In this document: positions 8,154 to 34,931 of the stretch, piece after piece
How positions within the stretch are numbered: position 1 is the first letter of the stretch
Layout: the number at the start of each line of letters is the position of its first letter
Assembly (NCBI RefSeq): GCF_000015045.1
Contig: NC_008609.1
Coordinates: forward strand, 1,993,501-2,057,500
Direction: 5' to 3'
Length of the DNA: 64,000 nt
Origin: Pelobacter propionicus DSM 2379
GTDB lineage: Bacteria > Desulfobacterota > Desulfuromonadia > Geobacterales > Pseudopelobacteraceae
The notes under the pieces: generated by a model
The model's database searches: none
What the model was told of the DNA's origin: nothing
What the model saw: the letters and a program-made list of their open reading frames with translations, nothing else
Position numbers and translations under genes: made by a program

Positions 8154-8163
8154 ATTTTTTTTG

Positions 8164-8224
8164 TGGCGGAGAGGTAGGGATTCGAACCCTAGGTACGTTT
8201 CCGTACACCTGATTTCGAGTCAGT
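8164..8224 (-). tRNA. 3' part of tRNA-Ser(CGA), integration-site duplicate
   Basis: Reading the minus strand, anticodon stem-loop CTGA-CTCGAAA-TCAG (anticodon CGA), a long variable arm GTACGGAAACGTAC, the T arm with GGTTCGAATCC and the acceptor 3' strand ending CGCCA are all recognisable. Upstream of the anticodon stem the sequence changes to AT-rich DNA with no D arm or 5' acceptor strand, so this is not a complete tRNA. This is what remains at the far end of an element that has integrated into the anticodon region of a tRNA gene, and the integrase gene lies just beyond it. Confidence 0.85.
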
Positions 8225-8470: not shown

Positions 8471-9754
8471 ATGGCAACCGGAACTCGTTTTACTGATAAA
8501 TTTATTATGAGTCTGAAACCGGCAGATAAGGAGTATTGGAAGAGGGAGGGGCAGGGATTCTCAATTCGTGTTTATCCTTCTGGCGAAAAAGCCTGGTATT
8601 TTATCTATACATTTGATGGGCGAAAAAAATACATGCGCTTAAAAGATGGGGGCTATCCCGACGTTTCACTGGCAGATGCAAGAGAAGCATTCGACATCGC
8701 TAAGGTTAAGTTGAAAAATGGAATCGACCCCCTCGCAGAACTCGAACAGGCAAGACTTGACCGTAAGCATACGCCGTTTGTGAAAGAGTTTGTTGACGAG
8801 TTTATCAGAATTTACTGTAAAGAGAATAATCGGGGGTGGAAAGAAATCGAACGCGCATTAAAATCAGAGATAGTTCCGAGATGGGGAAAGCGAAAACTGA
8901 CTGACATCAAACGACGAGACCTTGTCCTTGTGTTGGATGAAATCAAAGAACGAGGCGCACCTGTAATGGCAAATCGGATTCTTGCGTATACCCGCAAAAT
9001 GTTTTCGTGGGCATTAGAGCGCGCTGCTCTGGAAGTTAACCCATTTCTTATGATGAGTAGGCCGAATGATGAAACATCAAGGGAAAGGGTATTATCTGAA
9101 AAAGAGATTAAGACCTTTTGGCATAACCTCGATGAATGTAAAATGAGTGACAGCATCAAAAGAGCATTAAAGTTGATACTTGTAACGGGTCAGCGCCCTG
9201 GGGAAATTATTGGCATGCACCGTAACGAAATTGATGGTGAATGGTGGGAGATTCCTGCCGCACGTTCCAAGAACAAACAGGCGCATCGTGTTTTCCTGAC
9301 AATAACAGCTAAACAGCTAATTGGTGATGCGTCTGGATTTATTTTTGAATCACCAGCTAATCCAGCTAAACCTGACGAAACGCCTCCAAAGCCTGCCAAA
9401 CCTTATGAAGTTAGAACCATGACCCACGACATAAAGCAGAATCTTCCGCATACGCCTCACAGTAAGGTGATTGACCGTCTAAAGGTACCGCATTTTACTC
9501 CTCATGATTTGCGCCGAACTGCCGCGACTAGATGGGCAGAAATGGAGATTACCGGTGATATGATTGACCGGTTACAGAACCACATTACAAGGCAAAAGCA
9601 GGGTGTTGGCCATGTTTACAATCGTTACTCGTACGCTAGGGAAAAACAGCAGGCACTTGAAGCATGGGAGCAAAAGCTTAACAGTATCATCACCAGCATC
9701 GGATCAGACAGCGTGGTCCTGATCGACAAAGACAGCGACACAAATGCCGCGTAA
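8471..9754 (+). CDS. int: Tyrosine recombinase integrase (P4 type, DUF4102 arm-binding)
   Basis: Catalyses site-specific integration and excision of the element at tRNA-Ser. 427 residues, typical for P4-like integrases. Residues 1-90 form the DUF4102 N-terminal arm-binding domain, followed by a SAM-like core-binding domain (about 105-190) and the catalytic domain with the conserved Arg in TGQRPGE (about 242), HDLRR (His/Arg, about 345-348) and the nucleophile Tyr in the HVYNRYSYA region (about 385). All catalytic residues look present, so it is probably active. It lies 250 bp from the tRNA fragment and reads into the element. A terminator hairpin follows at 9822. Confidence 0.93.
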   Translation: MATGTRFTDKFIMSLKPADKEYWKREGQGFSIRVYPSGEKAWYFIYTFDGRKKYMRLKDGGYPDVSLADAREAFDIAKVKLKNGIDPLAELEQARLDRKHTPFVKEFVDEFIRIYCKENNRGWKEIERALKSEIVPRWGKRKLTDIKRRDLVLVLDEIKERGAPVMANRILAYTRKMFSWALERAALEVNPFLMMSRPNDETSRERVLSEKEIKTFWHNLDECKMSDSIKRALKLILVTGQRPGEIIGMHRNEIDGEWWEIPAARSKNKQAHRVFLTITAKQLIGDASGFIFESPANPAKPDETPPKPAKPYEVRTMTHDIKQNLPHTPHSKVIDRLKVPHFTPHDLRRTAATRWAEMEITGDMIDRLQNHITRQKQGVGHVYNRYSYAREKQQALEAWEQKLNSIITSIGSDSVVLIDKDSDTNAA

Positions 9755-20187: not shown

Positions 20188-21963
20188 TTAGACAACATCA
20201 TACTCGAATTTGATGCATTTTAGCTCGGGCGTAATGCCTAAATCAGACCCACTTTTCGTTGTCCTGCCAATTTCACTTATCAGGTGTAAATTCTTCTTGG
20301 CTCGTGAACAAATAACATATAACAATTTTTTTGCTGCATCAGATGCCCTGCCGGAAAAAATATCATTCCAATGAGGGACGTAGCCGTTTAACAGTCCATA
20401 GGAAATGACCGTATCAAACTCTTCGCCTTTTACACCAACACATGTATTGATTATTACGCCTGTCATTTCCCTGTAAAAACTTTTGAATGATTGAATATCA
20501 CTTGGCACCTTAAAGGTATCGTCATTCAATCTTTTATCAATATTATCGAAGAACAGGTTCCTGTGTTCTACAAGTTGTGGATATTTAAGCTGGTCGATGC
20601 CTATGATTTGCAGAAATTGGTCAAAACAATCGTTTAAATAATCAATACCTTCCATTTCAGAAGACTTTATGGAATTAATAAGCCTCAACAGGTCACGTTC
20701 ATTTTTATAAAGTTCATTGAATTCAGTATTTGTGTCAACACGGAAACTATCAATTAAATCAGTTGCCCATCTGTACCTTGAAGAATAAATTTTCGGATTT
20801 GGTTCAGTAAGCAAAAGACGTGATAGTTTATACCAAATATTTTCTCTGTTTTTTGACATGGGTGCTAACCCGGATGCGTCAAAACTCACACCTGGCAATG
20901 ATGCACGCAATTTCTTCGTAACAATCGTTATTAACCACCATTGAGGAACGAGAACACAAATTTCGTTTTCTGGAATGCCTGTGTCTAAACTTAATTGAAT
21001 CAATTTCGCAATTTCATCAACAATATTTGAATGATGAATATCTGAATTGAACGTTATAAGCCCTTCTTCCTTGGCGTTTTTTCCGACAGCATGAATCTGA
21101 TACTTTTGAGTTTGAAAATTTGAGTAAAAATCAATAATTCTTTGGCTTGACCGATAGTTTCCGGTAAGAGTCAAGTGAGTTATTGGCATATTGTCTATTT
21201 CGGCTTTAATTTCCTGTAAACTTTTTGCCACACCACCGAGCGAAGCGTAGATAGCTTGGTCAGTATCCCCGACAAAAAATAAAGATGTCTTTCCGTTACC
21301 TGCCTTGATAATTACCGAGATAATTGCATAAAGTAAATCCTGAGTATCCTGGTATTCATCAACACATATCAGTTCAAATATATTTGATAATGTAATTTGG
21401 ATATTCGGGTAGGTGACAAGCAATTTGTATGAATAATACAAAATTAGCTCAAAATCTATGAGCTTGTTACTTATAAGGATGCTGTGATACTCAGCAATTA
21501 GCTTCTGTTGAATACTTTTATTTTCAACATAACTTCCATCTCTATTAATTCTGAAATTTACCGGATCTATTTGCTTCAGCTTGTATTTGTCTTTAAGGCT
21601 GCTAACCAATTCCGCACAAAATGCTTCGTCGGCTATTGCAAACCCATTTGACAATTCTGGCAGATAACATGAATAAGGCTTTATTATCCATTCAAAGCAA
21701 AAGGAATGAAGAGTGCCAGACCAGATATTATTGCTGTTAATCCCTATCCCATTTAATCGCCTAAATATTTCTTCCGAAGCCCTAACTGTGAACGTTACGG
21801 CGGCAATTCGCTTTTTGCTGTTTTCAGGAAGCTTTGAGAGGTTGTAGGCAAGTTTATGGATTAATACTCGTGTTTTCCCACTTCCAGGACAAGCCGTCAA
21901 TAATACATGCCCTTCCTGCTTCACGGCCAACTTCTGCTCGTGGTTTAATTTAGCAAGAATCAT
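20188..21963 (-). CDS. UvrD/PcrA-like SF1A helicase, Gabija GajB-like
   Basis: 591-residue superfamily 1 helicase. Motifs: Walker A LTACPGSGKTRVLI (about 24-37), motif Ia FTVRASEEI, Walker B/II LICVDEYQDTQDLLY near 207, motif III GDTDQAIY near 237, motif IV TLTGNYRSSQRI near 280, motif V NTCVGVKGEEFDTVI near 502 and motif VI LLYVICSRAKKNLHLI near 560. It directly overlaps an upstream OLD-family nuclease gene by 4 bp. An OLD/TOPRIM nuclease plus UvrD-like helicase in this order is the architecture of Gabija (GajA-GajB), where GajB is thought to sense or process DNA ends. AT-rich compared with neighbours, consistent with separate acquisition. Confidence 0.85.
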   Translation of the reverse strand: MILAKLNHEQKLAVKQEGHVLLTACPGSGKTRVLIHKLAYNLSKLPENSKKRIAAVTFTVRASEEIFRRLNGIGINSNNIWSGTLHSFCFEWIIKPYSCYLPELSNGFAIADEAFCAELVSSLKDKYKLKQIDPVNFRINRDGSYVENKSIQQKLIAEYHSILISNKLIDFELILYYSYKLLVTYPNIQITLSNIFELICVDEYQDTQDLLYAIISVIIKAGNGKTSLFFVGDTDQAIYASLGGVAKSLQEIKAEIDNMPITHLTLTGNYRSSQRIIDFYSNFQTQKYQIHAVGKNAKEEGLITFNSDIHHSNIVDEIAKLIQLSLDTGIPENEICVLVPQWWLITIVTKKLRASLPGVSFDASGLAPMSKNRENIWYKLSRLLLTEPNPKIYSSRYRWATDLIDSFRVDTNTEFNELYKNERDLLRLINSIKSSEMEGIDYLNDCFDQFLQIIGIDQLKYPQLVEHRNLFFDNIDKRLNDDTFKVPSDIQSFKSFYREMTGVIINTCVGVKGEEFDTVISYGLLNGYVPHWNDIFSGRASDAAKKLLYVICSRAKKNLHLISEIGRTTKSGSDLGITPELKCIKFEYDVV

Positions 21964-24071
21964 AGGAATGCTAAAAAGGTTGTAAGTTGGTCGTTTTTGA
22001 AATCAGCAATGAAAGCGGAAACAATCTCTTCATGTGATTTATCCTTAACGTCAAAGTCTTTGGCCTTTTCCTGAAGCGAATTGCCATCGTGTTCCTGAAT
22101 ATGTTTAATGCGATGCAGTACCGCCTTTGCTTTAGAGGATATATTAATATGCGCAGCAGCAAATGCTATGGCTTCAAGAATATATTTTGGAATGAAAGTG
22201 TTATATACAAGTTGTTCCGCTACCAATAAAGCCAACCACCCTTTACCATGCTTGCCCGCAATCCTTAAAACTTCGACACCAGCAATCTCTACTGACTTGT
22301 TTTCAAGTTTTTCTTTTGCCTTATCAATCGCAGCGCCTTGCTTATAAATCGAATCCAAGCAATTGGCAAATTCATAGCTGTTAGAGTTCATAAGGAAATC
22401 AACTTCAAACGTATACTTTGCATAAATCGGCTTTATATATGTGTTTCCTTTGCAAAAATCTGTAAGTCGAAGTTTCCTTTCTTTTCCACTTTTCTCTGAT
22501 GCTCTACAATGAGCCTGGTACTCGGTGTCGGTTTTAGGGTCTGCAGGAAGTGTCACGATGGACGTATCATCATCCGTGAGAATGGAACAGTTTTTCCTTA
22601 CCCTGTCAGGATGAAAAATCCTCGCGACGTTTTCGAAGCCGGTACTACCTATATTTATTAAGCTTACACCGATTTCATCCAAAGAAAGCCCAAAGACTTT
22701 TTTGAACATCTCTGGAATCAATATCTGTTCCGCATCACCTTCAACCAAAACAACACCTTTCGCAAATAGTAAATTACTTCTAACTGCATCAAGGTATCGC
22801 TCAATTCTTATAATTTCGTCTTTGTCCAGACCTTTTGACGGATAAAATATTTGAGCCTCTTTGTCACCACGACTCAATATATTGACTTGGCTTATATTGC
22901 TTACTGACGAGATATGAGTGGAATGAGTTGATACAATGACTTGGGTTTTGTTCTCTTTCAGATTGTTAAAAAGGGTTTTTTGAATATGAGTGTGAACGTG
23001 TGCTTCCGGTTCTTCGACCAAAAGGAAATTTGCAATCCTGTCGGTCTTAACTTTTTCATATTCCAACAACTTTAAGGACAGATAAATGATGTTAGCACCT
23101 CCCAAACTCAATTCCGATATTCTCCCTTTGTGACCATCTTCGTCTGGGTCGCCAATCCATAGTTTTAACGATTGGAACAGTTTCTCCATTTCATTTGGAA
23201 GTTCGGACTTTATGTCGATATTTGGTGCATAGGTAGTACCAACCGTTTCCTTAATGCTCTTATCAATACCGTTCTTTACTTCCATCACTTCATCGAGCGA
23301 ACTGATTTGTTCGTTCAGCTGGTCAATACTCTCTATAATCTCGTGCTGTTTAGTAATTTCAACGGTCTTTTCTTTTCCTCTTAAAAGGCTTATTAGTGGG
23401 TTACTTGAATAGGAACGTAAATCGCTTTCAACGTCTCTAAGTGCTTTAATGAATGTGCAGGACAATTCGTTGTGGATATTGATTTCTTTGGGTAACCATG
23501 TCCCGAATATCAATTCTTCTTTATCATCAGGGTCTGGGAATTCAATCTTGTCAAAATCACCAACGTACTTTTTATAAATATCATCTATGCTGAAATCCGC
23601 CGTACTCCTGCATAAATAGACGGTTTCATAATCTTCAATTGCCAGCTTATCCAACAAAAGTTTCAATCCTGCTGAATCCTTGCCTTCAACCTGAGAGTAT
23701 TCGTAAAGTTCTTTTCTAAATTGGTATTTCGGCCTGAAATATACCGAATAGCTTCCTTGTGTGGCTGTTTCCATATGTCCACTTGACTGTATCGCTAATG
23801 CCTGGGCTTCTTCGCTTGTGTCTAATCCGTCAAATGTTATTGAAATAATAATCCAATGCCCGGCCCAACTATCCAACACCCTATTAAAATCAGTTTGATA
23901 AAATTTGAAATATCTCGGCAGGGTGTTATCAATCAAAATCCGTAAAGAGAAAAAAAGATTTGTTTTGCCAGAGCCATTTTCTCCAATGATAGTATTGATA
24001 CCTTTTCTAAAATGCAGTTGGGCACTTTTGAAGTTCCTGAAGTTCCGAATTGATAAACAAGATATATGCAT
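21960..24071 (-). CDS. OLD-family ATPase/TOPRIM nuclease, Gabija GajA-like
   Basis: 703 residues. N-terminal ABC-type ATPase: LSIRNFRNF and Walker A TIIGENGSGKTNLFF near 28-42; signature LSLGGANIIYLSLKL near 323; Walker B NFLLVEEPEAHVH near 343; His-switch IVSTHSTHIS near 378. The C-terminal TOPRIM nuclease begins VVLVEGDAEQILIPEMF (catalytic Glu, about 442) and continues with the ILTDDDTS acidic pair near 505. Known Gabija GajA proteins nick phage DNA when nucleotide levels fall. The pair with the overlapping UvrD-like helicase supports Gabija; a two-gene OLD class 2 system is the alternative name. 703 aa is longer than the founding GajA, so subtype assignment is uncertain. Confidence 0.85.
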   Translation of the reverse strand: MHISCLSIRNFRNFKSAQLHFRKGINTIIGENGSGKTNLFFSLRILIDNTLPRYFKFYQTDFNRVLDSWAGHWIIISITFDGLDTSEEAQALAIQSSGHMETATQGSYSVYFRPKYQFRKELYEYSQVEGKDSAGLKLLLDKLAIEDYETVYLCRSTADFSIDDIYKKYVGDFDKIEFPDPDDKEELIFGTWLPKEINIHNELSCTFIKALRDVESDLRSYSSNPLISLLRGKEKTVEITKQHEIIESIDQLNEQISSLDEVMEVKNGIDKSIKETVGTTYAPNIDIKSELPNEMEKLFQSLKLWIGDPDEDGHKGRISELSLGGANIIYLSLKLLEYEKVKTDRIANFLLVEEPEAHVHTHIQKTLFNNLKENKTQVIVSTHSTHISSVSNISQVNILSRGDKEAQIFYPSKGLDKDEIIRIERYLDAVRSNLLFAKGVVLVEGDAEQILIPEMFKKVFGLSLDEIGVSLINIGSTGFENVARIFHPDRVRKNCSILTDDDTSIVTLPADPKTDTEYQAHCRASEKSGKERKLRLTDFCKGNTYIKPIYAKYTFEVDFLMNSNSYEFANCLDSIYKQGAAIDKAKEKLENKSVEIAGVEVLRIAGKHGKGWLALLVAEQLVYNTFIPKYILEAIAFAAAHINISSKAKAVLHRIKHIQEHDGNSLQEKAKDFDVKDKSHEEIVSAFIADFKNDQLTTFLAFL

Positions 24072-24222: not shown

Positions 24223-27075
24223 TTATTCCCCAGTATCAAATTCATGGCTTTTGAATCTGAGAACATTGCAGTTTTCACGGATTGACCGTTGAACGTTTTC
24301 GTCAAACCCTGACATTGACTCGGCTTGAATATCAATCGAGATTTTCACCTTCACGTCATGCTTTGAAGTGAATATCTGTACGACTTCGTCAACAATCGTT
24401 GCAAAATCAATTTTTGCCCTTACTGGGTCAAGTTCTAGGGAACCATAGAATAGCTTCTTCTTTGGTGCAGTAGGCAGTGGCGGAGTATCATTTTCCGGTG
24501 TAGTAGGTGTGGTGCTGCCACCGCCACCATGACCAGTATTTGTAGTCGTAGTGCCGCCACCAGGAGTTGTGTTACCACCGTCAGTATCTGTAGTTGTATC
24601 GTCTACTGGGACTGGAACCGATTTCGTCTTTATTTCATATTCTCCAGCCGATGCCGGTTCAATCAGCAATAATGAATTATCAAATATGGGAGTCGTTGCA
24701 TTCCCACAGCTGAACCCCATGTATTTATCATCTTCCTTACCATAAGCGAATCCGAAGAAGTCCTTACTTGAAGCCCCGGCGGAAACAGCACGCTGGAAAA
24801 CTGATTCATCTTTAAGCCGTGGCATATACAGATAACAACAAGATTTGTGCCACACGTCTATTGCACCGGCATCAACAGCCCCATCTTTCCAAAACCAGCG
24901 TGAAAGAAGATTTTTAAGGTGTATCGGTGCCCACTCAAGAATAAGCACTTCATTATCCTTCAAGACCTTCCCGATTTCCTGAGTCAGATTCAAGGCACTT
25001 GATGAAACCATGAAGCTTTCCCATTTAATCTCGGAAATCTTACCGTTGGCTTCCTGAACCGGAGCCAGAAGCCACTTGTATGTGTCCTTAACGACCCTGT
25101 TCAATACGTCCTGGGCGTCTTCTAGGCTCTTTTGTGCTTGCCTTGCCTGAAGTTGGTCAAGGTTCAGCTTCATTTCCCTGTTATCATCAATAATGGATTT
25201 CCAAGCCAGGACGCTTTTTACCTGGTCTTTCAAACGGCTGACGTTCTCCATGTCAGCTGTTAGGAAGATAAGTCGGTTCTGCTTCAATCGTGGTTGGTCA
25301 CCACGGTTTTTCAGATATTCACCGGCTTTTTGCACAGCCAGGTTTTCACCGGCACGACTGAATGCAAAATTCGGCGGAAGAACTACAAGGCGAAGCTGAA
25401 AATCATCAGGCACGTCATTGTGCGGCACAAAGACATGGTTCCCGGCAAATACGCCAGACGACAGGCTTTGCTGAAGTCTTGTTCTTATTTCTGGATAAAC
25501 ATGTTCCGCATCCTGGAAGCGCCGTTTCCGTTCTTCCATTTCCCGACGCAGGTTCGGTCGAACGTCGAACCAGAACCTATTATTCCCGGAATTCAGGTAA
25601 TGAAGTCTGTCAGCAAGACGGCGCAGCGCATCCTTGAAAATTCCGGTTTGCTGACCAGGTTGAACACAGCCCAACATAATCTGTTCAGCCTCGATGCCCC
25701 TTGCCATTTGATTAGCAGTACATGGCGCACTACCAAGGAAGATTGTCCTTGCAGAACGACGAGATGCTTGGACGCTTCCGAGTCTAGTATCCTTGCTGTC
25801 TATTTCAGTCGTCTCGGCCCGCTCACCGTCGATGTCCCGTTCCATAACCGGGTCCCAGCCCGGCGGGAGATAGTAAATAACTTCGTTCCGCACATCAGCG
25901 TCATATAGTGGCAAATTCCCAGGCTGAATCAGCAAGTCTTTGTTGTCATCTTTCCAAAGACGGTAAATGACCTTTGCCATCATTTTAAGTACGCCACGAG
26001 TTCGCTGAAAATTTTCGAGAGTAGACCAGTCTTCATATAGGCGACTGAAAACTTCTGGGTGAATCGGATAGGCTGAGATAAGACGGTCGAAATACCTGCT
26101 TTCCTGCGTTTCGCGGGGGAAGTCGGCACTGTTTGCAATGTAGAAGTCCGCAAAAGTTCGACAGACATTTTCCGCAGCAACACGGTCGTTAATCGAAGAG
26201 AATAGCCTCCTACGAACGATTTCGAATGATTCGTCCGTTCCGACTGGCTTCCAGATAGCTTGAACGCGGGCAAAGTAATGTTCCAAGGCTTTTAATGCTG
26301 TAACACCGCGATTGCTTCCAGCCTCTTTCTCCGATTGCGGAAGAGAAGCCAACAGCATTGCATTAGGAACGGATTTTAGGGCTTCGGTAAGAGCTTGAAA
26401 GAAGGACAGGTTTGAATCGAACGTTCCGCCGGTCAGCTTGTTCCCATCTTCAAATTGACGCAGATACGCAACCAGTTCGTCAACCAGGATAACACAAGGT
26501 GCGTTTTCCAGAATTAGTTCGACCAGGTTCTCTTTGCCGGGAGATGTTCCGCTTACGTCGGCTGCGCGAACCTTTTCATATCCTGCTTCTTTGCCCAACT
26601 GCCAAGCAAGTTCCCCCCAGATGGTATGAACCGTAACGCTACCGCGCTTACGTGGTTGATTAGGGGCAAGGTTGTTGCCGTCTAGAACGACTATTCTGGC
26701 CGTCGGTAATTCCGTAATACTTGCAGCATCTAGCAGTGGTGGAATTCCTTGTAAATCATTTACATGACATTTTCCTGAAGCAAGATGGTAAACGGCAAGC
26801 ATGGTGTGCGTCTTACCGCCACCGAAGGCTGTTTGAAGCTGAATGACCGGGTCTCCGCCTTTACCGCACAGACGGCGAATGACCGAGTCCAGTAATAGTC
26901 GCATACCTTCTGTTATAAATGTCCGCTTATAAAACAGCTCAGGATTCAAGTATTCTTCGGAAGCAGTTCCGTTGTGAACCTGGGTCAGGTCAGCAGCAAA
27001 CTCGGCTTGCTGAAATGTTCCTTTAAGGACGTCTTCATGCGGAATCGCAACTTCACGCCAAGGTTTGAGGTTCAT
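24223..27075 (-). CDS. DUF499-family ATPase of a defence operon
   Basis: 950-residue P-loop protein. It begins [19 protein letters not shown], has Walker [15 protein letters not shown] near residue 80 and Walker [15 protein letters not shown] near 193, and matches the DUF499 proteins that occur beside DUF1156 methylases in bacterial defence islands (often annotated anti-phage-associated). The region after about 820 is a low-complexity Gly/Thr/Pro linker, followed by a C-terminal domain of about 80 residues starting [15 protein letters not shown]. It lies 22 bp downstream of the DUF1156 gene and is transcribed with it and the helicase. Its biochemical role is not established; an ATP-dependent effector or loader is likely. 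Confidence 0.88.
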
Positions 27076-27097
27076 ATTACACCACCGTTTAAGGGAT

Positions 27098-29446
27098 TTA
27101 TTGTAGGTTCATTTCGATCTGAGAGCCAGTGTGACCAACTTCATGCGAAATCTTTTCAACTTCGTGCCATGCAGCAATCAATTCATTGTAAGGACGTGCA
27201 TCTTCTGCCCATCCATTACGTTCACAAAGAGTATAAAGCCTGTATGAAAGCTGGCGGATTGATTCGCCACGTTCTGGCATACGAGCTAATAGAATCCCAG
27301 CAGCAGTTTCGCCTTCTGATTGAATGGCACGAATGAGCTGATGTAATGATTCCCACGCAGGAGTGCGGTTGTCTTTTCCTGGGTCCCAATCTGCAGGATA
27401 TTCAGAATATTTTAAAAGTCGAACACGTCCGGCACCAGATTCAATGACACCCGCTTCTTTCACACCATCAACGGTTGTACCTTTGGCTCTTGAAAGTATA
27501 TCGGCTTGCCCAAATTGGCCTGCACGCCAGTCATTCTCTTCAAACCACGAAATACAGAAATTGGTATCAGCATCAAAGGATTGACCACCAAAATAGTCGT
27601 CAATTTCTTTGTTGATTAATGTCAGAGCAGTATGAACCGTCATTTTTTGACCATCAGCTTCAATTACTGCTTCATATTTCGAAAATACAGCCATGCCTGG
27701 ACCAATTGCAGCTTGGGCAAGGTCAACAGGTGCAATAGGGGACATGCCTTCTTTTCCGCCTATCATATCTTCAAGAGCTTCAGGCATTGCTTCTTTTAAT
27801 TCACGTTGGAATTCTCGTCGAGAAATTGAAAGAGCATCAGATTCTCGCATACGACATACAAGAATAATGCTTGAAGCAAGTGCATTGGTGCCGGTTTTGA
27901 GACCTTGGTCCCGCTCTGTCCGGAGGGGCCAAGTCCCGGTTATGTAGAATCCTGCGTTTAATACGGCTTCTAAAAAAGTCTCCCAACCAGTGGACGCGGT
28001 TCCCGCTTCGTTAGTTTTCGATTGCTTAAACGCATAGTAAATTGTTACAGGGAATGCTTTATTTGCTTGGTTAGCAATGTTTGTCATTGCTATTGTCATG
28101 CCGTTCAAGAAAAAAGTTTCAGACGCCTCTTTCCCGCCCTGACGATAAGGTTGGGCAATTAGTTCTTCCCCTTTGGGAGTCGATAAAGTCTGGAATAGTT
28201 CTGGAATGATTGGCTTAAGAACATGTCTTAACCAAATATAGAAAAAATCGGACAAATCTGAATACGATATATTATCGTAATAAGGAGGGTCAGTTGAGAT
28301 TACCTTATTTTTTGAGATAGTCTGGGTTTGTGCGTCGAACTGGGTTGAATGCCCAGGACTGTTTGCTGGAATTGCAAACTTCAAAACCCGATTAATCCAA
28401 TCAATTGCCCCAAGCCAATTACCTGTTGAGCTTGAAAATGGGTTGCCTTCTGCATGGTCCCATATCATGGGAATTGCATTTCTACCGAAGGTTTGAACAA
28501 TAAAATCACCGCCCCAAGGCGTAAGAGATGACCAGTAATTTGCACACCTTCCAACCGCTAACGCCAAGTAAACACAAATAGCCTCAGAATAACCGTTATA
28601 CTTTTGGTCTTTATTTTTTTCGGTGTGCTTTGCTATATCACTATCAATTTTTGTCCTTGCTTCTTGTATTACTTCTGAAAAAGTTGATAAAGCAACAAGT
28701 TGGCGTGGCGTGAATAAATCACCATAATTTCCAAGACCATAATTCAGTGTCCAAAAGTTCCGTGGGTCATCAGGAAGTGCTAAATTAGGTTTCCAATTAG
28801 GATTTGCTTGCCGAACTATTTCTTCATGCTGTTCGGTCGGAGATAAATAAATCTTTCCTTTTGGTCCTTCGGTAATAATCGCTAAAAGTCTTGATCCTAT
28901 TCGCCCAGCCAATCCCTCTGATTTAATGTATTTGCTGTCAATAGGGGTACCAGATAACAAACACTTAAAATTGGCACCACGAGCCAGCTTTGTACCACTT
29001 TTTACCGACTCAATATCCGTCGGCTTTCCGGTATGAACTACAAAGTGATATTTATCACCGTCGATAATCGGCTCAATATAAGCCTCCCTTGTAGCCTTAC
29101 TTGAAATATAAAATGTAGTTGTTAATGGCACTTCGACGTGACTGAATGCAGGGTTTGGACTCCTGACCGTACGTGCCCAGATCCATGCAATAACAGTTAA
29201 TTTCTCGCCAATCAGCGGTTTTAATTCAGGTCTATTTTTTGCTTCTTCGGCAGTAATTTCTATTTGTGGATATAGATTCTCTAAACGTTTGTATACTTGA
29301 CCCTTTATCCATATACCATATCTACGAACATCTTCTGCAAGACCATTTGCTTTTGACCAGTCATTGTGAAGCTTTAATTGTTTGTCGCTTTTAGGTATCG
29401 GACCAATCGGGGTAATTCCAGAATGTTTCGGAGGTATTTCAATCAT
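27098..29446 (-). pseudogene. DUF1156 DNA methylase, C-terminal fragment after frameshift
   Basis: 782 residues carrying the catalytic part of an adenine-type methyltransferase: ISTDPPYYDNISYSDLSDFF, with the catalytic DPPY near residue 388. The N-terminal SAM-binding part is encoded separately at 29455-29970. The upstream frame ends [11 protein letters not shown]-stop; one missing base in TCTTTTAAATAAAGC would restore the usual continuation through NKAMIEIPPK. The ATG at 29446 has no ribosome binding site (TTTTAAATAAAGCA precedes it), so this fragment is unlikely to be an independent gene. A single-base deletion, a sequencing error or frameshifting are the options. Confidence 0.82.
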
Positions 29447-29454
29447 TGCTTTAT

Positions 29455-29970
29455 TTAAAAGACTGCGACAGGGTTCAAGTCAGTAGCATGACTTTCCAAT
29501 CCTAAACGTTGTGCCTCAAGCGGAATTGTGCCACCACCGGCAAAAGGGTCATGTGTAGCTGGCAAAATATCAGGGTTAAATAATTCTTCCGCGTTAGGGT
29601 GATTCTTATTAAGTGCGCAGGTTTCTACCCAACTTTTACGAATTTCTACGCGAGCTTTTTCAAGGACTTCTTCGTTGTTAGTGTTTTCCCACAAAACGAG
29701 TTGACGGATTATTTCAAATAATCTTTCTCTTTGAGCCTGGGCATTTTCTTTATTTATCCCACGTCCAAGACTTCGTTCATATCCAGGGTCATTAACTAAC
29801 TGAGCAAAAAGTACAGCACGTGCTGCAGCCAAAGGGCGACGTGCCCACCACAAGTGAATTGTTGATGGATGTCCGTGACGTATGGACTTTTCTCTCGATG
29901 CCGCCTTGTTTATGTCATCAAGAGGCAATGCCACCTCAATCAGTTTTTTTGGTGCTTTAATCTCGATCAT
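29455..29970 (-). pseudogene. DUF1156 DNA methylase, N-terminal fragment
   Basis: 171 residues: the DUF1156 signature [20 protein letters not shown] (about 29-48) and the SAM-binding loop [17 protein letters not shown] (about 138-155), ending soon after in a TAA. Alone it lacks the DPPY catalytic motif, which lies in the next frame (27098-29446). It starts 9 bp after the helicase stop with AAGG upstream of the ATG. In intact homologues both parts form one protein of about 950 residues that modifies self DNA in DUF499-type defence loci. Confidence 0.82.
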
Positions 29971-29979
29971 AAGGGCCTT

Positions 29980-32900
29980 TTAGTTCGTTACTGAATTTGG
30001 GTTTTGTGCTTTTCCAAGTAATTGTGCCAGGTCGTAATTGATGCTGGTAACGCCCCAATCTGGTTCATGGGTGAATGGATTCCATATATAATGTGGTCCT
30101 TCATGGTTATTACCATCCACCAGAACCACAGCAAGAACAAATTTGTCCGATTGATTCAAGCCATATAGAATTTCATTCCTGGTAACGGTAATGGTCGTTT
30201 GACCTTTTGCTCGACCTTTTACTTCAATGTGACGAACTTCTGGGATTTTGCCATCCTTCATGGGCGGTCTTGACGTGACATCCCACCCACATTTTTCAGC
30301 AGATACGTCAGTAACTTCATACCCTAAGCTTCTTTCCAGATTCATTACCGCTTGCATGGCAACCATTTCAACTCTTGCACGGGATTCAGCGTCGGCACAG
30401 AATTCATTGCTGCCTTTACATTGTGCAAGTAAACCTGCTGGGATAACCAAAGCACCGCCGACAATTAACGGTGTGGATGAAATCACATGACGCATTGCCA
30501 CAAGCTCTTTCTTCCTTGTTTCAAGCCGTGCCGTCAGTTCATCAATGGTCCGCCGGACATTTTCAAGCTGAACCCGTGGTTGCCTTCCTGCGTTTACATC
30601 GTCTTGGAGCTTTATGTAACGGTCGCTCCAGTAGTTGATTTCTTTAACCAGGCGTTCATTGACAGCAGAAAGCGTCTTGTCAACCTGACGCTCCCGCCGA
30701 GCTTTTATCTCGTCAAAATGAATCGGAATCATATTTTGAGAAGCATATGACAGGGCAACCTGTTCAAGGTCTCTGTTGAGCCAGTCACCATTTAGAATGT
30801 TTTCAATTAGGGCGAGGTCGCTCTTTTCAATCGGTTCAAGGTCGAGATGAGGTGCCCATCCGGCATTAACTGCATTGCTGGTCTGGTCAATTTCTACGAA
30901 TTGTATCCTTCGTGAAATTGCCTTATCCGGCTGATTCCCCTCTCTAACAGAATGGTCAATGAGGAACATTACTTTCGGAACAAGACCAGGGTCACCGTGG
31001 TCAACCAGAATTGCTCCTTGCTTCAGTTTTGACCGGTGAGCCTCAAGCATCAAATCAATCGTTGATTGCATTAGGGGATGACCAGGATGAAGTAAACTCG
31101 CCATTGACTTGTTGCTGGTAATCCGAATGTTCTGTTTTTCAAAACAGACTCTTTCGTAGCGTTTTAACACCGGGTCGCGGGAAAACCTGTCCCGACCGGA
31201 TATTTGACGGTCACGCTCACGGATTATGGCGGGGACGTTCATTATTTCAAAACGACCTGCTTCACGCGGACGTAATTCACCACCCAATTGTTTGAATGCC
31301 TGATTGAAGAAGGCTCTTATGAAATATGGCTGCAGCTTCCGTGCTTCAGCCTTTTCCATATCGTCTTTGACGGCAAAGAGCTTTTGTTCATCCATGATCT
31401 CTTCACAAAGAGCATTGCGATTCATAATGTTCCGCAAGTGAGTCGTATCGAGTGCTTCATCAACGACATGATTCAACTCAAGTTGGCGGATAGGGTCGTC
31501 ACCATAACGAACTGCGTCAATCAGCAGTTCACGGAGGGACTTGTTCTCAAACACTTCCCCAAGGATGTCGAAGACTCTCCCGCCAAGTGCTTGTCGTTCG
31601 ATTTCGAGCTTATCCAGGAGGCGCTGGAATACATCTCCTTCACGGGTTTCGTTAGCCACCATGTTCCACAAGTGGCAGACCTGATCTTGACCGATACGGT
31701 GGATACGACCAAAGCGTTGTTCCAGGCGATTTGGATTCCAGGGAAGATCATAATTGACCATTAAATTAGCGTTCTGAAGGTTGATACCCTCACCGGCAGC
31801 GTCGGTGGCAACCAGAACCCTGACTTCGGGGTCGTTTCTAAACAATTCCTGAATTTTCCGGCGGTCGTCACGCTTTACTCCGCCATGTATCGTTACAACG
31901 CTGTCTTCTGACCCTATGAGACCACGAATTTTCATTACGAGGTAATGAAGCGTGTCCTTATGCTCCGTAAAGATGATGAGTTTACGCTGGCGTCCATCCT
32001 TGTCTCGCATTTCAGGGGTATTTTGGAGAAGGTTTGACAACTCTTCCCACTTGCGGTCTTGCCCGGAATGAACAACGTCGCTTGCTTGATTTACAAGCCC
32101 TTCGAGAATATGAATCTCTACTTCGAGTTCTTGGATAGTCTGTGCTGCTGTCGCTTGGTCAACAACAGCCTCTTCAAAGCGTTCGTATTCATCATCTCCC
32201 ATTTCATCAGCGGAATCATATATATTTTCCGGTACGTCAAAGCCAGTCACTTCCGTCAGTAATTGTCCGCGTTGGCGAAGTTTTTCATCTGCTACCCGGC
32301 GCTTGAGCTTTAAATGACGTCGTTTAAGTGATTGATAAATAGCTTCTGGGCTTGACGCAAGACGACGTTGAAGGGCAGTAAGGGCGAATCCTACGGTGCC
32401 TCTGCGTCCACCTTCAAGTTCATCAGCTTTGTTCATTTCCTCTTTGACGTATTCTGTTACTGAATGATAAAGGCGAGCCTCCATTTCTGAGAGTTGGTAG
32501 TTTGCAGTATAGGCCCTACGTTCGGGGAACAGTTTTGTCCCGTCAAATTTCAGTAATTCCTCTTTGACCATGCGCCGCATTAAATCGGAAGTATCAACCT
32601 TATGCGCGCCATCACGGAATTTGCCGTAAAACCGGTCGGAATCGAGCAATGACAAGAATAGCTGGAAGTCTTCTTCTTTTCCGTTATGCGGTGTAGCAGT
32701 CATCAGTAAGAGATGGCGGGTAGTTGAACCAAGGAACTTAGCCAATTTGAAACGTTTTGTTTCAGTGACTTTTTGACCGTACCATGTAGCAGAAAGCTTA
32801 TGAGCCTCGTCGAAAATCACCAAGTCCCAGTTTACAGACGTCAACTTCTCTTGAAGGTCTTCACTGCGGCTTAATTGGTCAAGACGGGCAATAAGGGTAT

Positions 32901-33498
32901 CGTTTTCATAAAACGCATTGCCAGTTCGGGACTGCTGTTCAAGTTCACGGCTAAATATGGTGAATGTGAGTCCGAATTTTTCGTAAAGTTCGTCTTGCCA
33001 TTGTTCTACCAGGCTACCCGGAGCAATAATCAGGACTCGTTGTGCATCAGCCCGCATCATAAGCTCACGGATATATAAGCCAGCCATGACCGTTTTACCT
33101 GCACCAGGATCATCGGCAAGGACATACCTTAATGGTTGACGGGGAAGCATTGATTCATATACGGCTGTGATTTGATGTGGAAGGGGCTGAACGTTTGAAG
33201 TATGAACAGCCATCATACTGTCGAAGAGGTAGGCGAGATTGATTCGGTATGCCTCGGTCGCTATTTTAAAATCTGCTCCGTCTGCGTCGAAGGACCATGG
33301 ACGACCTGCTTTAGTAATTGATAGCTGAAGCTCATCCGTTCGGAACAGCATTCTTTCCAGAACACGTCCATCTGATGTCTTGTAATAAACAGTGAGAGCG
33401 TCTGTTCCAACTGGTTCGGTCGTGACAATTCGGACGGTCTGTCCTGGCTCAATGCCATTTACGGCAGCGTTTTTACGGATTTCTTCCAGCTTAAGCAT
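29980..33498 (-). CDS. SNF2/DEAD-type helicase with C-terminal DUF3883
   Basis: 1172-residue superfamily 2 helicase, first gene of the DUF1156-DUF499 operon. Seen: Walker [18 protein letters not shown] near residue 130, [16 protein letters not shown] box [10 protein letters not shown] near 230, motif [13 protein letters not shown] near 270, motif [13 protein letters not shown] near 565 and motif [12 protein letters not shown] near 600. The last 120 residues are a DUF3883-like domain ([13 protein letters not shown].. with D/ExK-type residues), often predicted to be a nuclease-like or modified-DNA-reading fold. Similar helicases drive DISARM-like systems. SD GGAGG lies 6 nt before the ATG. The reading frame is intact. 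Confidence 0.9.
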
Positions 33499-33592
33499 TC
33501 AATCCTCCACCCATTCATAAAACCTTGGAAACATATCACAATACTGGGCCTTTATGTAGAGTTTATGTCCTGCAGTGGACCATTTAAAACGA

Positions 33593-33722
33593 TTTTGGCT
33601 AACTCTGCCAAAAAACTGGCTTTCTTACCATCAATTTAGGCTAACCGCCTAACTAATTGGATTTTATTGCATAAATTTTGGCTGTTTTGCCTAGAAATAG
33701 CTGCCAAAATGATAATTTTGGC
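33593..33722. promoter_or_regulatory. Cluster of TTTTGGC/GCCAAAA inverted repeats
   Basis: Within 130 bp of AT-rich DNA: TTTTGGC-N7-GCCAAAA (33593-33613), TTAGGC-N5-GCCTAA (33636-33652), an arm ATTTTGGC at 33675-33682, and GCCAAAAT-GATA-ATTTTGGC (33703-33722). The cluster lies between the divergent helicase (defence operon) and ftsZ-like genes, so it is a good candidate operator array for either or both. No candidate regulator gene is adjacent. The rest of 33499-33923 has no gene. Confidence 0.6.
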
Positions 33723-33923
33723 TTATGAATTGATTGCAGTGGCTGTTGCGTGAAATTGGCCATATGGAGTTGGCAACTGAAGAATGCTGCTGTAATGTGC
33801 CTCACTGCGGAACCGTTTGAATATCTGCATGGATTTCATGGAAAGCCCGATAATGGCGCTGGGAAACTGTAATTTGTTGTTGAAGTGAATAATTTAACAT
33901 TCAGTGTATTAACGGGAGGTTAT

Positions 33924-34931
33924 ATGAGTATCAATGATTCGGAAGAGTGTGACCGTTTAGTTGTTAAAGTCGTTGGTGTCGGCGGGGTTGGTGTCCTGGC
34001 CCTGGAGAGCATGATAAAAGCAAAAATCCGGGGGGTCGATTTCATTGCAGTCGATACAGAAGCTCAAGCATTGGAAACCTCTTCAGCTCCGATTAAAATC
34101 CGACTTGGCGTGAACACGACAAAAGACGGTGGCTCAGGTTCGAGGCCTGAATCAGACCGTGCTGATGCTGAAGAATCACGACAAGAAATTGGGGAGGCTC
34201 TGAAGGGTGCCGATGTTGTAATTATTGTTGCCAGAATGGGAGGTTGCACAGGTACAGGTGCTGTTCAAGTCATTGCAGATGCTGCCAAGGTGTCGGGAGC
34301 ATTGATGACTGTTGGCATTGTAACGCTGCCTTTTAATCATGAAGGCAAAATACGCATGGAAACGGCCGAAGAAGGGGTTCGTGCTCTCGGAAAGCGAGTG
34401 GACTCTTTGATTGTTATTCCGAATGAGGGTATGGCTGCTGTCGGTTCCACCGAGCAGAACCTTTTGGAGGTGTTAACAGGTGATGCAATTCTCACTGAGG
34501 CTGTACGTGGAATTACAGACCTTCTGAGACCACGCTTCCCGGCAATTGACCCTGGGGATATAATTCGCGTTCTGCCAAGTGAATATCCGATTACTTTTGG
34601 AATAGGCGAGGCTTCAGGACATGATCGTGCATTGAAAGCTGCCCAAAAGGCTATGCACCCTCTTTCCCGAGGAGGTGTTGATATCGCTCAGGCCAGTGAC
34701 GTACTGGTGAATATTGCCGGTTCGAGCGATATGACAATGGCCGATTACAATGAAGTCAACAAGTTCATTTGCAGCAAAATCAGCGATGACACCCAGATCA
34801 AAATTTGTTTTACTGTTGATGACCGCCTGGAGGATAAAATTAAAGTGACGGTATATTTGTCCAAATCTGAACCGACTGCAACAATACGGACAGAGAACAC
34901 AAATTATGATGTCCCTTCATATTTATTATAA
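33924..34931 (+). CDS. Divergent FtsZ-like tubulin GTPase
   Basis: 335 residues. The tubulin/FtsZ signature is RMGGCTGTGAVQVIADAAK (about residue 106), with the N-terminal nucleotide loop KVVGVGGVGVLALESM and the TLPFNHEGK segment that matches the FtsZ TxPFxxEG. The T7 region reads AIDPGDI, keeping the two acidic positions needed for GTP hydrolysis but not the usual Asn. The protein ends YDVPSYLL, resembling the FtsZ C-terminal peptide (DIPxFL) that binds FtsA and other partners, with almost no linker. Start chosen at ATG 33924 (GGGAGG 4-5 nt upstream). It is a paralogue on a mobile element, so interference with or substitution for host division is possible; plasmid segregation is an alternative. 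Confidence 0.87.
   Translation: MSINDSEECDRLVVKVVGVGGVGVLALESMIKAKIRGVDFIAVDTEAQALETSSAPIKIRLGVNTTKDGGSGSRPESDRADAEESRQEIGEALKGADVVIIVARMGGCTGTGAVQVIADAAKVSGALMTVGIVTLPFNHEGKIRMETAEEGVRALGKRVDSLIVIPNEGMAAVGSTEQNLLEVLTGDAILTEAVRGITDLLRPRFPAIDPGDIIRVLPSEYPITFGIGEASGHDRALKAAQKAMHPLSRGGVDIAQASDVLVNIAGSSDMTMADYNEVNKFICSKISDDTQIKICFTVDDRLEDKIKVTVYLSKSEPTATIRTENTNYDVPSYLL

Follow-up and report, generated by a model that had tools for sequence, protein, structure and literature searches.

An accessory FtsZ on a tRNA-Ser island

What would a second copy of the division protein FtsZ do on a mobile island, in a cell that retains a canonical ftsZ beside ftsA? The question is raised by an open reading frame (P0001) in the 64,000 nt of Pelobacter propionicus DSM 2379 DNA analyzed here, which we call the window. 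The canonical gene of the same genome lies at C3:3618296; the P0001 gene does not adjoin ftsA. Coordinates of the principal features are collected in Table 1.

An earlier note, made from the sequence alone, had called the gene mobile, and its surroundings bear this out. A 65-bp direct repeat derived from the end of a tRNA gene is matched by a second copy in an intact tRNA-Ser(CGA), the left repeat adjoins an integrase gene, and the GC content drops from ~0.60 outside to 0.36-0.52 inside. The P0001 gene therefore lies in an island integrated at tRNA-Ser, with a size of ~69.6 kb. Also on the island are the HmaCBA defense operon, an adjoining Gabija-like pair (an OLD/TOPRIM ATPase, or OLD nuclease, and a UvrD helicase; 20188-24071), and genes for RecT, PD-(D/E)XK, AAA_5, CobT-VWA and KfrA_N proteins. 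A type I R-M locus is found immediately outside. Directly downstream of the P0001 gene, a recombinase-like remnant can be read.

Table 1. Features of the window and of the right island boundary.
Feature	Coordinates	Strand	Basis or remark
P0001, FtsZ paralogue, 335 aa	33924..34931	+	sequence, Pfam, TIGR00065, AF2
T4 signature loop GGCTGTG (canonical GGGTGTG)	34239..34259	+	sequence, alignment
T7 loop A-I-D-P-G-D; Asn207 to Ala, Asp209 and Asp212 kept	34542..34559	+	alignment
C-terminal peptide YDVPSYLL, preceded by ~14 aa linker	34905..34928	+	sequence, alignment
HmaA helicase, first gene of divergent defense operon	29980..33498	-	PADLOC PDLC00659, 2070 bits
HmaB, split into two ORFs	27098-29446 and 29455-29970	-	PADLOC, ORF list
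HmaC	24223-27075	-	PADLOC
Four (A/G)ATTT(T/A)GGCT repeats (AATTTTGGCT-like), 40-42 bp spacing	33591..33723	.	hmaA-P0001 divergent promoter region
Winged-helix protein, 124 aa	51272..51646	-	family neighbors accessory FtsZ-like genes in relatives
Left 65-bp direct repeat, tRNA-Ser 3' end remnant	8159..8223	.	repeat comparison
Right repeat copy	77718-77782 (window scale, outside window)	.	3' end of intact tRNA-Ser(CGA)
Tyrosine integrase of island	8471..9754	+	position beside left repeat; family read from sequence

P0001 retains the FtsZ fold and has lost assembly residues

The P0001 frame is open throughout and is preceded by a good ribosome-binding site, GGGAGG, 6-10 nt 5' of the ATG. Both FtsZ domains are present, the GTPase (Pfam Tubulin, E=1.4e-37) and FtsZ_C (E=2.7e-17), and the TIGR00065 FtsZ model matches with E=1.2e-68, its 232 bits falling under the equivalog cut-off of 295 bits. 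An AlphaFold2 (AF2) model (pTM 0.80) superimposed on B. subtilis FtsZ with a Z score of 41 across 301 residues; residues 316-335 were modeled with pLDDT <50.

P0001 thus resembles canonical FtsZ in its core fold, tubulin signature, T7 aspartates and C-terminal conserved peptide (CTP), and departs from it in score, in residues and in genomic setting. Alignment confirmed the tubulin signature and both acidic T7 positions that had been noted earlier, with GGC in place of the GGG of the host ftsZ. In E. coli FtsZ numbering, the assembly residues N24, D45, Q47, R142, N207, D209 and D212 read L, E, Q, R, A, D and D. The extreme C-terminus, NYDVPSYLL compared with QYDIPTFLRKSVD in the host protein, contains DVPSYL, a match to the CTP pattern D-I/V-P-x-F/Y-L, so that the proposed divisome-type peptide holds up. 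The near absence of a linker was likewise upheld: ~14 aa precede the peptide, versus ~66 aa in host FtsZ.

P0001 belongs to the FtsZ lineage of its host

The phylogenetic comparison with FtsZ and TubZ suggested in the earlier note came out on the side of cellular FtsZ, with P0001 grouping among FtsZ of the Geobacterales. In a tree that took in FtsZ from other phyla, with TubZ itself outside it, P0001 fell within Desulfuromonadia FtsZ on a long branch (support 98/94), and the placement persisted when diverged relatives were removed (97/95). All matches of P0001 to PDB sequences were FtsZ and none was TubZ. Lying among Desulfuromonadia FtsZ on a long branch, P0001 is thus, as judged from sequence, a fast-evolving derivative of cellular FtsZ from the host's own lineage. 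Its neighbor in the tree, L033, comes from a related genome and is 45-48% identical to it. Long branches may have aided this adjacency; the two proteins also have in common a one-residue insertion before IVTLP and a VLPSE-x-x-x-TFG-x-GEA block.

Close orthologues of P0001 were absent from 85k genomes in a pattern search, and none of 395 genomes of the phylum and 277 of the class held an orthologue scoring above canonical FtsZ. We rejected a phage origin: there was no PHROG match, phage and plasmid matches stayed below 43% identity (the annotated ones being ordinary ftsZ), and scans of viral contigs returned nothing for P0001 and only 7 general FtsZ matches.

The host genome holds a third ORF with an FtsZ domain (L003; L100:7161-9212, C3:274069 region). 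Its product runs from a signal peptide through a transmembrane segment, a DYVDIPLLI stretch that resembles the division peptide and an FtsZ GTPase half lacking the C-terminal domain to zinc ribbons. The gene neighbors three serine recombinases, and a truncated comM-like gene apparently adjoins it.

Accessory FtsZ-like proteins and the division peptide

Canonical and near-canonical FtsZs in our alignment retained N207, D209 and D212. Most FtsZ-like proteins without the GTP signature had Asn207 replaced by G, A or C while retaining both T7 aspartates; Ala at 207 is common to P0001 and its closest relative, L033. At the position matching 207, the S. aureus substitution N208L abolished assembly, and mutations at the bottom interface of S. 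aureus FtsZ were toxic and blocked division (PMC8936486).

Of 25 accessory FtsZ-like proteins, 7 carry a C-terminal division peptide; among the 597 ORFs of the compared loci that do not encode FtsZ, none does. The peptide occurs in two proteins without the GTP signature (L058, EVPSWL; L069, DIPPFL) and in a protein consisting of the C-domain only (L055, RIPAFQ), a retention that points to selection for divisome docking. The peptide is missing from L033 and from 18 of the 25, so docking would not be general to the group.

Among the accessory proteins, L035, L036, L037 and L044 lack the nucleotide loops and keep the T7 aspartates and C-domain; the first three have a twin-arginine-like N-terminus (MDRRTFLT). 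In L045:7806-8819 the division peptide is replaced by an end, FVSKMLLALKRFFRRTHG, that resembles an amphipathic membrane helix. The L035 cluster (G022:C1) lies directly 3' of dnaN-recF-gyrB, near the chromosomal origin.

A winged-helix family accompanies FtsZ-like genes

The window also encodes a small winged-helix protein, 17 kb from the P0001 gene and on the opposite strand. Of the 277 class genomes, 36 encode relatives; beyond the class, an evenly drawn sample of the phylum yielded a single genome with a relative. In its AF2 model the winged-helix core has pLDDT ~90, and most members of the family have an acidic tail after this core; Foldseek returned no significant match, TubR ranking 35th (E=0.58).

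We collected 40 loci (560 kb) solely for the presence of the winged-helix protein. Ten also held non-canonical FtsZ-like ORFs (threshold E <=1e-5), whereas ~0.2 were expected by our own estimate, which takes ftsZ to occur about once in 3.9 Mb. A distance of at most 250 bp, on the same strand, separates six FtsZ-like genes from a winged-helix gene; two of the six were assigned by clustering only. In L074 the two genes are adjacent, and their products are 37% and 45% identical to the window's FtsZ and winged-helix proteins, respectively; with both proteins related to this adjacent pair, the window's two genes may represent such a pair in split form. P0001 itself lacks the same-strand adjacency seen in L074 and elsewhere. 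Related clusters contain genes for WYL regulators, AAA, JAB and ankyrin proteins and ADP-ribosylglycohydrolase.

The loci L072, L101 and L102 (G015:C1:203000-235000) contain tandem 6.9-kb units. In each unit a winged-helix gene, of the same subtype as that in the window, adjoins an IS200-type transposase gene and ArsA- and DsbD-like genes.

Incomplete look-alikes of division and replication proteins

The winged-helix gene is also adjoined by genes for DnaB_C-only proteins that lack the N-domain (L051, L053, L057, L058, L060, L062). Most overlap it; in four loci the overlap measures 37-40 nt. DnaA-like proteins lacking the DNA-binding domain IV are encoded next to FtsZ-like genes (L036, L037, L058), and the DnaA paralogues at L036:7443-8240 and L058:1544-2563 are adjacent to or overlap those genes. 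L041 and L054 encode FtsA-like proteins that have no C-terminal membrane helix; in L041 a single operon-like run comprises two FtsA-like genes together with two FtsZ-like ones.

An oligomerizing core without one working part, repeated across related loci, fits dominant-negative or decoy action. It is conceivable, though we lean against it, that P0001 belongs to mobile cell-cycle mimic modules of the Desulfuromonadia: incomplete paralogues of FtsZ, FtsA, DnaA and DnaB would each keep the oligomerization core and miss one working part; under a threat to the island or its host they would halt or gate division and replication or serve as decoys, with the acidic-tailed winged-helix protein as their dedicated controller. 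Our literature search turned up no paper describing an accessory FtsZ from a Geobacter island or mimic sets of this kind, and the recurring island gene set of incomplete division and replication proteins is apparently undescribed. That a set of look-alikes is tied to one winged-helix family is more surprising than P0001 itself.

A candidate division modulator and its alternatives

The observed sequence, location, phylogenetic origin and motif state of P0001, and the recurrence of FtsZ-like genes beside a winged-helix partner, frame the reading that we tentatively prefer, at somewhat less than even probability: P0001 may be an FtsZ subunit, impaired in assembly, that docks to the host's FtsZ or FtsA and modulates or poisons division. 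It would combine the FtsZ core and an FtsA-type docking tail with a much shortened linker and with the loss of two residues on which normal self-assembly depends (N24, replaced by L, and N207, replaced by A). Assembling only weakly with itself, it could enter or cap host FtsZ filaments by hetero-association, and its tail might also, or instead, fill CTP sites of the divisome on FtsA-type partners. Expression from the island would then slow or block division, and the winged-helix protein would presumably control P0001. The lost N207 and the diverged relatives that keep the peptide strengthen the suggestion, made in the earlier note, that P0001 co-polymerizes with or poisons host FtsZ, which we regard as plausible. 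Against the division-modulator reading stand the absence of the CTP from L033 and most accessory FtsZs and the distance and orientation of the window's winged-helix gene.

Several known systems offer other models. FtsZl1 and FtsZl2 are distant families encoded in vWA/kinase/GTPase operons (Makarova and Koonin 2010; PMC2875224). They share with P0001 the presence of an extra FtsZ-like gene alongside a normal ftsZ, whereas P0001 is a derived cellular FtsZ with an FtsZ_C domain and a CTP. No membrane-protein operon of the FtsZl1 type, with vWA, kinase or GTPase genes, surrounds P0001; it is neighbored by the Hma genes and one for a hybrid histidine kinase, and the CobT-type vWA gene belongs to a different module at a distance of 13 kb. 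FtsZm of magnetosome islands is a truncated FtsZ paralogue, and P0001 is like it in being an FtsZ paralogue on a genomic island. FtsZm has been reported without its C-terminal part, which would set it apart from P0001.

An autonomous second FtsZ, forming its own filaments for a task apart from host division, as proposed for FtsZl1 or reported for the magnetosome FtsZ-like protein, is an unlikely reading. The complete core folds as FtsZ in the AF2 model, and because the signature, R142, Q47, D209 and D212 are kept, P0001 could still be a self-polymerizing GTPase working on its own. The loss of N24 and N207, the nearly absent linker and the nonetheless intact divisome peptide speak against such independence, as does the lack of an FtsZl1-type operon. 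Only slightly more credible, and still improbable, is a decoy or guard role, in which P0001 would imitate a host division protein attacked by phage while the winged-helix, AAA or another partner senses the attack; the gene would then count among the island's defenses. FtsZ, FtsA, DnaA and DnaB, the proteins imitated in the wider set, include known phage targets, and the defense load of the island and its border (Hma, the Gabija-like pair, type I R-M) and the regulator, AAA and other genes of the related clusters agree with it; no effector was found, and P0001 matched 0 PADLOC families. Its position divergent from a defense operon, as described earlier, is real (HmaCBA, 24223-33498, minus strand), but a special tie is not supported: none of the other fetched Hma loci has an FtsZ-like or winged-helix gene nearby, so we rejected P0001 as an Hma-linked gene, and the arrangement looks incidental. 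HmaA occurs in only 6 of the 277 class genomes, and with hmaB split into ORFs of 171 and 782 aa in different frames, the Hma system here may be inactive or two-part.

A captured ftsZ copy that has no function and is drifting toward decay as a passenger would account for the very long branch, the missing close orthologue and the recombinase-like remnant downstream; the intact frame, the ribosome-binding site, the conserved fold and the retention of both T7 aspartates and the C-terminal peptide make it quite unlikely. Most doubtful is a segregation motor like TubZRC, in which the winged-helix protein would serve as the adaptor in the manner of TubR and the 41-bp repeats would form the centromere. 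TubZ/RepX plasmid tubulins of type III segregation resemble P0001 as tubulin-superfamily genes on mobile elements, and a predicted winged-helix protein, four regularly spaced repeats upstream of the P0001 gene and a KfrA_N gene are all at hand. P0001, however, has the sequence, domains and tree position of cellular FtsZ and a divisome peptide that segregation would leave unexplained, while the candidate adaptor barely registers against TubR and belongs to a family that pairs with DnaB-like genes too. The repeats form part of GGC-N5/6-GCC palindromes, and their exact pattern occurs once genome-wide; no such repeats were found near the winged-helix gene. We therefore set aside a TubZ identity, which the PDB sequence matches and the FtsZ tree do not support, and the segregation role raised earlier gained no positive evidence.

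Implications

A division-modulating P0001 would act through FtsZ binding, as MciZ, SulA and the CbtA toxin do. These are not FtsZ homologues, whereas P0001 is a paralogue and would act by mimicry; its mechanism would thus differ from that of the small-protein inhibitors SulA and MciZ, and mobile elements would be steering host division through altered versions of the very protein by which the host divides. The FtsZ-like proteins that lack the signature and keep only the T7 aspartates would be natural half-site subunits, useful for studying the capping of FtsZ filaments and inter-subunit GTP hydrolysis. The look-alike set and its winged-helix regulator offer a defined gene family for testing, and, if the mimic-module reading is true, FtsZ, FtsA, DnaA and DnaB look-alikes under one regulator family would represent a new route from islands to the cell cycle.
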